Below, piece after piece: positions 28,127 through 32,520 of a DNA stretch of 34,138 nucleotides. The stretch spans positions 1 through 34,138 of the IMG/VR virus record IMGVR_UViG_3300031651_000011; one strand, given 5' to 3'. The translations under genes were made by a program, and so were the position numbers. Within the stretch, counting starts at the first letter, position 1. The number at the start of each line of letters is the position of its first letter. This DNA comes from a virus. The notes beneath the pieces were generated by a model. It was given only the letters and a program-made list of their open reading frames with translations. It made no database searches and was not told the DNA's origin.

Positions 28127-28234
28127 TTATCTACGCCTGCTTCGGCTTGACCTGTGATGGCGAATATGACGATAGGTATGCCGTTCTATACTACGCCATG
28201 CGTCGATGATGAAACATAATGGTGGGCTGCTCAT
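28127..28234 (-). CDS. 35-residue basic peptide, first gene after the late terminator
   Basis: The ATG at 28234 has a strong GGAGGT site, placed about 15 bases after the terminator T-run. The product (MSSPPLCFIIDAWRSIERHT, then a His/Arg/Ser-rich tail) has no recognised family. The good ribosome site and tight spacing to the holin-like gene (13 bases) support translation. Its place suggests that it opens the late operon. Confidence 0.55.
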   Translation of the reverse strand: MSSPPLCFIIDAWRSIERHTYRHIRHHRSSRSRRR

Positions 28235-28252
28235 GTTTACCTCCCTAAATGC

Positions 28253-28273
28253 AAAAACCACCCGAAAGGGCGG
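28253..28273 (-). terminator. Rho-independent terminator between tRNA and late genes
   Basis: On the minus strand, CCGCCC-TTTC-GGGTGG forms a 6-bp stem with one G-U pair, followed by five T. It is 15 bases after the tRNA 3' end and just before the ribosome site of the first late gene. Late transcription from the upstream promoter would therefore need readthrough or antitermination. Confidence 0.8.
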
Positions 28274-28287
28274 CTCATTTAATTGCT

Positions 28288-28363
28288 TGGTGGCGGGCCT
28301 GGGAGTCGAACCCAGTCCTCAAGTTAATGGGACTTGCGACTTAACCGCTTTGTCCTGCCCGCT
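28288..28363 (-). tRNA. Atypical tRNA, CAT anticodon (Met-like), CCA encoded
   Basis: It is exactly 76 nt with CCA encoded. The acceptor pairs GCGGGC with GCCCGC but has A1-C72 unpaired. The D arm is GAC/GTC with A14, G18-G19 and A21. The anticodon stem is CAAGT/ACTTG (perfect), with loop CCCATTA. The T arm is CTGGG-TTCGACT-CCCAG (perfect). Departures from the norm are A8 for U8, C33 for U33, T37 and a short variable loop. The anticodon would read CAU. A1-C72 and A11-T24 recall initiator tRNAs, but the three G-C pairs of an initiator anticodon stem are missing. It could be functional, degenerate or a structural mimic. Confidence 0.7.
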
Positions 28364-28383
28364 ACAGAGTAATAATTTTGCAG

Positions 28384-28486
28384 CGATTTACCAAACCGAT
28401 TTACAGATTCCCGACACGGCGATTTTGGTAATAATATTACCACGATTTCGACACGATTTTGTGACGAAAATGTGACGATTTTGGCT
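28384..28486. repeat. CGATTT repeat array with 11-bp phasing
   Basis: CGATTT-type units begin at 28384, 28397, 28420, 28443, 28454, 28465 (as CGAAAA) and 28476. The last four are exact 11-mers in tandem of consensus ACGATTTTGTG, and the earlier gaps are 23, 23 and 13 bases. A perfect 15-bp palindrome GGTAATAATATTACC lies at 28427-28441 between units. The regular spacing puts the sites on one DNA face, as for an iteron or operator array. Confidence 0.75.
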
Positions 28487-28500
28487 CTAAAATGACTTGA

Positions 28501-28554
28501 GGGCATACTAAATGCCCACTTTGTCAAGATACCATTAAGTATAAAGTTTGTCAA
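28501..28554 (-). promoter_or_regulatory. Late-type promoter with downstream palindrome
   Basis: TTGACA (28549-28554) is followed after 17 bases by TATCTT (28526-28531). A second TTGACA at 28522-28527 overlaps the -10. Immediately downstream lies the perfect 6-bp inverted repeat GGGCAT-5 nt-ATGCCC (28501-28517), where a repressor or activator could bind. The promoter points to the repeat array, the tRNA and the late genes. Confidence 0.6.
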
Positions 28555-29035
28555 GTTTTTGCGAAAACTGTTGTTTTTCGCCAGTTTTTGACGCATCCCA
28601 AACCTCTCTCTTCCACCGGCTAAAGTCTATCCGCTTCCGTTTCTTTCCCTTGAGATACATCAGGATCGCCCGGGCTCCATCGCTCAGGTTACTAAGAGTC
28701 CTGCCATCCTCGACCTGGGTGATGAGGAGCTCCCCCTTGTTGTCCACAGTTTCGAGCCTAGCCTCTATCTCGGCAATCGCTATGCCCGCTTTGACAAAGT
28801 AAGCCTCTGAGTGAAGCTGTTTTGATTCGCCTGATTCCTCATGCCTTGTCACCCAATCCCCAGCCCTGAATATATCGGCGTGGTCTAGAATCCAGAGGAT
28901 TTGTCGCGGGCACCAGCGTATCTCCCCGTAGTGATACCATTCTTTTTCCGCTTTTTTCCCATTTTCAGTATACGAATACCATTTGCCAGGGCAGCCCTTC
29001 CAGCGTTTACACTTTCGGCAGTCAAGCTCAGCCAC
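28535..29035 (-). CDS. Cysteine-rich protein, candidate late regulator (Q-like position)
   Basis: This 166-residue protein's N-terminus has a C6-x-x-C9-x5-C15 cluster and a further Cys near 42 (EIRWCPRQILWILDHADIFR), suggesting a zinc-binding fold. The middle is acidic and helical; the C-terminus is basic (YLKGKKRKRIDFSRWKREVW). It starts with GTG at 29035, preceded by AGGGAG, overlapping the preceding gene. It lies immediately upstream of a promoter, a tRNA and a terminator preceding the late operon, the position of Q-type antiterminators. There is no recognised sequence match to Q; the role is inferred. Confidence 0.6.
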   Translation of the reverse strand: MAELDCRKCKRWKGCPGKWYSYTENGKKAEKEWYHYGEIRWCPRQILWILDHADIFRAGDWVTRHEESGESKQLHSEAYFVKAGIAIAEIEARLETVDNKGELLITQVEDGRTLSNLSDGARAILMYLKGKKRKRIDFSRWKREVWDASKTGEKQQFSQKLDKLYT

Positions 29036-29222
29036 GCCCCATTCTCCCTTGAGGCTTCTGGCGCATGAGCTTATCTATCTCTTCGAGGCTTTCGAGCTTC
29101 CCCTGGACTTCAATAGCCTGCTTCTTGCTCCCCGGTGGTTTGAAGAAGATGCCGAGCTCCTTTCTGCAATAACGAGCCAGGTTCCTCTTGCTCTGTATTG
29201 ATAGGCCTTCCCAGAGTGCCAT
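29028..29222 (-). CDS. Small helical phage protein
   Basis: This 64-residue protein begins with MALWEGLSIQSKRNLARYCR, a helix with a DNA-binding look. It continues with KPPGSKKQAIEVQGKLESLE and ends in a basic tail. The ATG at 29222 has AGGAGGGGG eight bases upstream and overlaps the LuxR-type gene's stop (TGATG). It also overlaps the cysteine-rich gene by eight bases, so the three are one translational unit. The function is unknown. Confidence 0.65.
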   Translation of the reverse strand: MALWEGLSIQSKRNLARYCRKELGIFFKPPGSKKQAIEVQGKLESLEEIDKLMRQKPQGRMGRG

Positions 29223-29455
29223 CAGAACCACCCCCTCCTCAGAGCGTAGGAAGTGGCCTGAACTCTGTTACGAACTCCTAACTTCTGGTAGATATGCTGG
29301 ACATGATTTTTGACTGTCTGATGCCCTATTCCCATGTGGCAGGCGATTTCCTTGTTCTGCCAGCCCCGGCACATGTAGCGCAGAACCTCAGTTTCCCTTC
29401 TGGTGAGTGGCTTCCGTCTTATCCCCAGGATTCGCTCTAATAGCTCTTTAATCAT
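29222..29455 (-). CDS. LuxR/GerE-type HTH regulator
   Basis: This 77-residue protein is almost entirely a GerE-type HTH (residues about 16-77): LTRRETEVLRYMCRGWQNKE, IACHMGIGHQTVKNHVQHIY, QKLGVRNRVQA. It has no receiver or sensor domain. It starts seven bases after the T-run of a strong terminator with no ribosome site visible, so expression probably depends on readthrough or on unusual initiation. It leads the gene trio before the late control region and may regulate that promoter; this is inference. Confidence 0.8.
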   Translation of the reverse strand: MIKELLERILGIRRKPLTRRETEVLRYMCRGWQNKEIACHMGIGHQTVKNHVQHIYQKLGVRNRVQATSYALRRGWF

Positions 29456-29461
29456 CGTAAT

Positions 29462-29525
29462 AAAAAAAGAGGCGAACCCCCAGGTTTCCCCGGTTTCCCC
29501 GGTTTCCCCTGGTAAAGCTCGCCTC
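29462..29525 (-). terminator. Long terminator with internal 9-bp repeats
   Basis: On the minus strand, GAGGCGA pairs with TCGCCTC, followed by seven T. The loop contains an inner CCAGG/CCTGG pairing and three consecutive GGGGAAACC-type units. It lies between the early module and the LuxR-type gene. The repeats in the apical part are not needed for termination and may bind a protein or RNA. Confidence 0.8.
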
Positions 29526-29768: not shown

Positions 29769-30275
29769 TTATATCAATAGCTTTGTTTCCTTCTTCAGCC
29801 AAGATAATACTCGGACTGTATGAAAGCCCCCTGGTAGTAACAGCCACAACTTCTCCCGATTAAACCCACTTACCATAGGAGCGCAAATATCGAGCCATAA
29901 GATATTGTCAATATTTTCTTGGAAGTATGCTTTTAATGCCCTGCGAAAAGTAACATCAGAGGCAATACAGCCCGACAACCCATAGCCTTTTAGCTTCGTG
30001 CCTACCCGGGTAATGTTATAGGGCGGGTCTAAAACTACCCAATCCCAATGTCTCTTGTCTGTCTTGATAAAGTCCTTAACATCACAGTTCAGTGTAGCAT
30101 TATTGTGTTCAATGTCTACTCGTTCATTGCCTATCAGGCTTGAACCGCTGAAAAGGTGAAGCACCATGCCGGCAATATGAGACTCTATAATACCCTGAAC
30201 AGTTTTGGTGAACGCCCCAGGGTAAGAGGAATTATTAAACCCCATCCCCAAGACTTCAAATTCAAATCTTCTCAT
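29769..30275 (-). CDS. DNA methyltransferase (DPPY type)
   Basis: This 168-residue protein has the catalytic motif D83-P-P-Y86 in WVVLDPPYNITR, typical of N6-adenine or N4-cytosine methyltransferases. Motif I-like VLHLFSGSSLIGNERVDIEH lies before it, and LWLLLPGGFHTVRVLSWLKK closes the fold. It is short and has no target-recognition domain, so it is a minimal phage enzyme. Its ATG overlaps the nuclease gene's stop (ATGA). It may modify phage DNA to resist host restriction; target sequence unknown. Confidence 0.8.
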   Translation of the reverse strand: MRRFEFEVLGMGFNNSSYPGAFTKTVQGIIESHIAGMVLHLFSGSSLIGNERVDIEHNNATLNCDVKDFIKTDKRHWDWVVLDPPYNITRVGTKLKGYGLSGCIASDVTFRRALKAYFQENIDNILWLDICAPMVSGFNREKLWLLLPGGFHTVRVLSWLKKETKLLI

Positions 30276-31809: not shown

Positions 31810-32520
31810 TCAGTGGGAGATAGGTTTGCCTGCCTTCTTACCATATTTCGACCAATGCTTCAGGATGCCCCCGATATATCCCCAATCAGGATGATTGGCC
31901 CGGCACGCTTCTCTAATCGCATCAACAACCCACCAGGGAGAGTATCGCCCACAGGCAATCTTTATTTCTTCTTCTACATCTTCTGAGACAGTGGCTCCGA
32001 GCAAAATGTTTTCCTGATAAAACTCTATTGCTTTTTTTATTTTACTTTCTGAGTTAAAAGACTGAACTAAACTTTCTTCTTGTTTAGTTTCTTCTTTATC
32101 TTTAACTTTATCTTTAGTTTTATCTTTAACTTTAACTTGTGTTAGACCTACTCCGTCTTTACTCCGTCCTAACTCTGGAGTAAAAGGTGGGATTTGCGAT
32201 GCACTTTCCTTATCTTTTCGCAATCCTGGCTGATGTTTTTCAAAGTTTTTCATCAATAAATAGTGCCCACCGGGCGCCGAATAACGCAAAATTAAGCCCT
32301 GGTGTTCCAGTTCCACCAGATATTTTTCAATGGTTTGGGCTTTCATTGAGCGCCGGGGGAAGACAATACTTTTCACAGTTTGAGCATCACCATACATGCG
32401 TCCTTCGCAATCGAGATGCGTTATAAGCCAGGTAAATAACAGCCTAACTGTATCGCTCGACAGAGCGTCTACCTTCTCGTCCAGGCTGATAGCCTTGCTT
32501 ACAAATCTACCGCGAGCCAT
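31810..32520 (-). CDS. DnaD-like replication initiation protein
   Basis: The product has 236 residues. The N-terminal domain (about 1-95) is a winged helix: LDEKVDALSSDTVRLLFTWL, FPRRSMKAQTIEKYLVELEH, GLILRYSAPGGHYLLMKNF. A charged linker of lysine-aspartate repeats (about 125-150) precedes a C-terminal DnaD-like domain (about 160-232): YQENILLGATVSEDVEEEI and PDWGYIGGILKHWSKYGK. This domain order matches phage replisome organisers. The linker is encoded by a short TTTATCTTT-type repeat. It probably binds the origin and recruits the helicase. Confidence 0.75.
   Translation of the reverse strand: MARGRFVSKAISLDEKVDALSSDTVRLLFTWLITHLDCEGRMYGDAQTVKSIVFPRRSMKAQTIEKYLVELEHQGLILRYSAPGGHYLLMKNFEKHQPGLRKDKESASQIPPFTPELGRSKDGVGLTQVKVKDKTKDKVKDKEETKQEESLVQSFNSESKIKKAIEFYQENILLGATVSEDVEEEIKIACGRYSPWWVVDAIREACRANHPDWGYIGGILKHWSKYGKKAGKPISH

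Follow-up and report, generated by a model that had tools for sequence, protein, structure and literature searches.

Lambdoid phages have a late region that consists of a promoter, a short leader and a terminator ahead of the late genes, and in some of them the late operon begins with tRNA genes. In phage L, two tRNA genes lie in the late leader and begin 46 bp from the start of the late mRNA (PMC8022706). Among systems built on direct repeats, the ParR protein of plasmid R1 requires at least two 11-bp repeats (PMC9426499), the PHO box consensus is formed by CTGTCAT repeats at 11 bp (PMC3131613), and the phage SPP1 initiator gp38 binds repeats within gene 38 (oriL) and also a second direct-repeat origin, oriR (PMC6316719). 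The DNA analyzed here, 34,138 nt of IMG/VR virus record IMGVR_UViG_3300031651_000011 (positions 1 to 34,138; the window), contains a lambdoid-like late leader, as read from sequence pattern alone: a promoter, a short leader and a terminator before the late genes, with the optional tRNA gene at the 5' end, as in phage L and P22-like phages. It differs from the lambda pR'-tR' leader in that no Q-type antiterminator homologue was established in the window phage. The leader also carries an array of CGATTT repeats around a palindrome; no comparable repeat array is known from a lambdoid late leader.

The array looks like an add-on protein-binding site and not a phage replication origin. It is tentatively read, at a little under even probability, as an accessory, multi-unit module of late-leader DNA that would be bound cooperatively by a protein, in the manner of an operator.

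Anatomy and significance of the array

The array and its central palindrome occupied the following positions:
28384–28486, no strand assigned: repeat array of seven units, six CGATTT and one CGAAAA
28426–28442, no strand assigned: 17-bp palindrome TGGTAATAATATTACCA, flanked by two array units, with its center base altered in the related record L007

Exact CGATTT units began at 28384, 28397, 28420, 28443, 28454, and 28476 (steps of 13, 23, 23, 11, and 22). An earlier note made from the sequence had described seven CGATTT-type units; all seven positions held, but the unit at 28465 was CGAAAA. Counting it, the steps were 13, 23, 23, 11, 11, and 11, so that the final four units followed each other at exact 11-bp steps and three of these four tandem 11-mers contained CGATTT. 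Across 300 dinucleotide-preserving shuffles, the maximum for any hexamer was four copies per 103 bp and the largest cluster of CGATTT itself was three; the window had six CGATTT in 98 bp. The cluster is above chance.

The best-fitting period of the array was 11.0–11.5 bp. Unit phasing gave a resultant of 0.94 at 11.5 bp, a value equaled by 0.3% of random placements when any period from 9 to 13 bp was allowed. At 10.5 bp, the period of relaxed B-DNA, the resultant was 0.34, the same as for random placement. Thus, the "helically phased" spacing of the earlier note stands as an 11–11.5 bp regularity and not as B-DNA phasing. G+C was 38% in the array and 46% in the window as a whole; 3.6% of 120-bp stretches had less. 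There were no further array copies within the window, and the sole match to the exact 24-base array core in the viral collection was L007.

Two explanations based on spacing were rejected. Curvature predicted with wedge parameters fell between the 80th and 95th percentile over arcs of 60–100 bp, which is unremarkable for bent DNA from phased A-tracts. A PHO box, in which PhoB recognizes tandem 7+4 bp repeats, was suggested by the four tandem 11-bp steps, the A/T-rich spacer and a GTCACA; the best consensus score in the array was 10/14, below that of chance sites elsewhere in the window (11/14).

A scan of the collection for CGATTT at 11-bp steps found 28 viral loci and another 51 in genomes, in unrelated contexts. 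The 10-bp control scan found 25 viral loci. Because the control pattern was equally frequent, the 11-bp CGATTT pattern alone identifies nothing.

The palindrome had been reported as 15 bp long; it does lie between units, but it extends to 17 bp. Apart from TGGTAATAATATTACCA, no palindrome in the window had arms of 7 or more. Since shuffled windows yielded on average about one palindrome with arms of at least 8, TGGTAATAATATTACCA is notable solely for its position inside the array. The nonamer TAATATTAC, which is cut by Rep proteins of some circular single-stranded DNA viruses, occurred on the plus strand within the palindrome itself and not in the loop of a stem-loop. In L007, the changed center base moved the nonamer to the opposite strand, and no HUH Rep was found among the window proteins searched (large structural proteins lay outside the scan). 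An origin of the circular single-stranded DNA virus type was therefore rejected and the Rep-nicking reading of TAATATTAC is disfavored, in agreement with the earlier view of the nonamer as a probable chance match.

Distribution of the array among related leaders

All genes around the array were on the minus strand, where the order was: cysteine-rich gene, promoter, 5' hairpin, array, tRNA-Met(CAT), terminator, two small genes whose products seem to have transmembrane segments, terminase small subunit gene (TerS), and terminase large subunit gene (TerL). This order puts the array in the late-operon leader, predicted to be untranslated. The earlier note had overlooked the tRNA-Met gene adjoining the array, as well as the promoter and terminator enclosing both. 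The features of the leader were:
28526–28554, minus strand: sigma-70-like promoter TTGACA-17-TATCTT, within which the cysteine-rich gene ends
28501–28517, minus strand: 5' leader hairpin GGGCATTTAGTATGCCC, with altered, mostly paired forms in relatives and weak covariation
28364–28483, no strand assigned: accessory module of about 115 bp that contains the array and is bounded by AGAGCCA and the tRNA, missing in the tRNA-bearing relative L145
28288–28363, minus strand: tRNA-Met(CAT)-like gene, with intact homologues in L007 and L145
28255–28276, minus strand: intrinsic terminator at the end of the leader, also present in relatives

Relatives were collected through their TerL, TerS, LuxR-type and cysteine-rich proteins and through the leader motif, which gave 15 distinct readable leaders, the window included. 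Two of the 15 contained both array and tRNA (the window and L007), and one, L145, contained the tRNA without the array (AGAGCCATTTCTACATAGCGGG). The other 12 had neither the array nor an intact tRNA at this place: L005 had a truncated tRNA, L003 had its tRNA elsewhere, and in the remaining leaders the leader motif or hairpin led straight into the terminator. A TTGACA-17/18-TAnnnT promoter was present in all leaders except L190 (L146 was judged by eye). Because relatives keep the promoter and terminator without the array, and L145 keeps the tRNA without it, the array is, on this comparison, an accessory module, with AGAGCCA on one side and the tRNA on the other.

Between the window and L007, 122 of 123 positions were identical over 28364–28486, and the sole change was the center base of the palindrome. 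Identity elsewhere was lower: the cysteine-rich gene matched at 463/501 positions (92%), the tRNA at 63/73 (86%), and the promoter segment at 29/43. Conservation of the array exceeded that of the cysteine-rich gene (p = 0.0016). The search in related phages proposed by the earlier note thus found the array kept in L007 and absent from the other 13 leaders. A blastn search with 28200–29500 against the phage collection returned no match.

The array might instead be an inert insertion, a functionless relic of some small element, mobile or recombined. Its clean presence or absence, its restriction to two phages, and the AGAGCC-like sequence that flanks the array and tRNA cassette on both sides are all compatible with this. 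Conservation above both the adjacent coding DNA and the tRNA counts against it, as do the lack of further copies in the window and the single match to the 24-base core, and an inert insertion is rather unlikely.

The array could also serve in packaging, as a cos/pac-type site for the small subunit of the terminase. Repeats can occur in terminase sites, and the array lies about 1 kb from terS. Yet the window and L007 share the array while their TerL proteins are only 29% identical, and the array was lacking both in L009, which has the TerS/TerL type of L007, and in L002 and L006, which have the TerL type of the window. A packaging site was rejected as highly improbable, as the array was not inherited together with the TerL/TerS type.

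The layout of 28255–28554, with a promoter over the last early gene, a 5' hairpin and a terminator before the late genes, was conserved across the phage family and resembles lambda pR'-tR'. Among close relatives, the tRNA-Met(CAT)-like gene was gained, lost, truncated or relocated. ARAGORN and Rfam (gathering thresholds) did not call the window tRNA; ARAGORN did call the homologues of L007 and L145. In the window copy, position 33 is C in place of T, which probably explains the ARAGORN miss. Because it carries C33 but its stem differences from L007 are paired, it is best described as a recent decay or variant.

A proposed operator-like module in the late leader

The comparison above shows how the array is built, that it exceeds chance, that it is conserved in L007 and that it is an accessory element. 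We infer that a DNA-binding protein, encoded by phage or host, would bind the CGATTT units cooperatively, with the central palindrome as a putative dimer or nucleation site. Relative to the predicted transcription start, the array lies about 35–140 bp downstream, in a layout that would work like a lambdoid late promoter region. There, the complex may serve as a transcriptional roadblock or switch for leader, tRNA and late operon. This reading is favored by a cluster beyond chance, the 11–11.5 bp period, the near-identity in L007, and the clean absence from relatives that keep promoter and terminator. The variable center base of the palindrome fits recognition of a dyad. A protein-assembly site, as the earlier note proposed, fits both the anatomy and the conservation in L007, though several of the binders it named are disfavored (below).

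Several points weigh on the other side. Only two genomes carry the array, and either constraint or recent recombination could explain their identity. The array has no known companion gene, and the L007 record is only 4.5 kb long. Additionally, a position downstream of the promoter is unusual for an activator. The bolder claim of a new phage regulatory module, in which an array stepped at 11 bp around a central palindrome, inserted downstream of a pR'-like late promoter, would form a nucleoprotein complex gating tRNA and late-gene transcription, is unlikely on present evidence.

Alternatively, the array may act as RNA, with a protein or a structure reading the leader transcript ahead of the tRNA and controlling tRNA processing or termination. 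The array is inside the predicted transcript and strongly conserved, and leader 28364–28520 folded better than shuffles (z = -2.9). The array alone barely beat shuffles, and the plus strand did likewise (z = -1.7 and -2.0). Such similar folding on the two strands makes it likelier that the symmetry is recognized in DNA than in RNA. A regular 11-bp period is unexpected for an RNA fold and the L145 leader has a tRNA but no array, so that an RNA-level element is of low probability.

A partition site (a ParR/parC-like centromere) or a xenogeneic silencer site, for plasmid-like or quiescent maintenance, would resemble plasmid R1 in its direct repeats stepped at 11 bp, and the integrase of the window phage is cut down to a fragment. 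The window array differs from parC in its irregular steps of 13 and 23 and its mid-array palindrome. ParM, ParR, TubZ or ParB-type genes were not recognized among the early-region proteins searched, and the array is absent in relatives; such a site is very unlikely.

The tyrosine recombinase at 1816–2109 is a 97-amino-acid C-terminal fragment; the L009 and L004 records have full integrase domains. An attP site was rejected, as the fragment lies about 26 kb from the array and the tRNA is full length.

Neighboring proteins as candidate binders

The gene next to the promoter was:
28535–29035, minus strand: cysteine-rich protein with invariant C6, C9, C15, and C42, the last gene before the late promoter

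The cysteine-rich protein matched no known family, and its structure model was weak (predicted local distance difference test, pLDDT, 64) and without a match. It is a candidate late activator by position only, and it occupies the position of a late antiterminator. The earlier note had named it as a possible binder of the array; its presence in 9/9 relatives examined makes this disfavored. The LuxR-type protein at 29222–29455, named likewise, was about 90% identical in phages without the array, and an operator of this protein was rejected because the two do not co-occur. A DNA-methyltransferase-like gene at 29769–30275 was missing from all nine relatives in the comparison.

Replication initiator and probable origin

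The third binder named was the replication initiator:
31810–32520, minus strand: replication initiation protein/DnaD-like helicase loader, assigned by family matches, with in-gene GTTAAAGATAAA-type repeats

According to the remaining alternative, this protein binds the array as an iteron origin, possibly a second origin like SPP1 oriR. Direct repeats, a G+C below that of the window and a replication initiator encoded in the window may point to such an origin, and SPP1 shares the combination of direct repeats and a phage-encoded initiator. In the collection scan, 7/28 of the 11-bp viral matches lay inside initiator-like genes, against 0/25 of the 10-bp control. This excess is suggestive but at odds with the window phage, whose initiator gene has other repeats. 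These are the GTTAAAGATAAA-type repeats at about 32093–32161; no CGATTT occurred in the gene. In SPP1, gp38 binds both origins, whereas here the initiator gene holds its own, different repeats, and relatives with the same kind of initiator lack the array, so that the repeats are not conserved with a cognate initiator. Tandem CGATTT at 10 bp was also as common as at 11 bp, and cumulative GC skew, a check raised by the earlier note, did not turn at the array. Given the other in-gene repeats, the lack of CGATTT in the initiator gene and the absence of a skew turn, the initiator is disfavored as the binder and an iteron origin at the array is distinctly unlikely. The phage origin is more likely in the initiator gene, at about 32093–32161.

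In relatives, the corresponding part of the initiator gene also carried repeats, often of another kind. Seven unrelated phages (L016, L021, L022, L024, L032, L033, and L037) contained the 11-bp-step CGATTT inside initiator-like genes, possibly as in-gene iterons. The Phage_rep_org_N domain was not found in 35 records. At L104:11664–12720, the first initiator open reading frame joins a window-type initiator start to HNH-nuclease-like sequence, by reading of the translation, and a separate initiator gene comes next.

Host and implications

In a search of the phylum Chloroflexota, TerL relatives at 49% identity were present in 4/400 genomes, and assignment of a Chloroflexota host is tentative. 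A DNA search of 400 Chloroflexota genomes gave one weak 37-bp match and no array.

If the operator-like reading is true, it removes a false lead for the replication origin, for which the initiator gene is the more likely site. The late leader in this family of uncultured phages, to whose terminase Chloroflexota genomes hold relatives, would then gain and lose both regulatory repeats and a tRNA gene, and its array, tRNA-only and empty leaders would form a natural comparison set.
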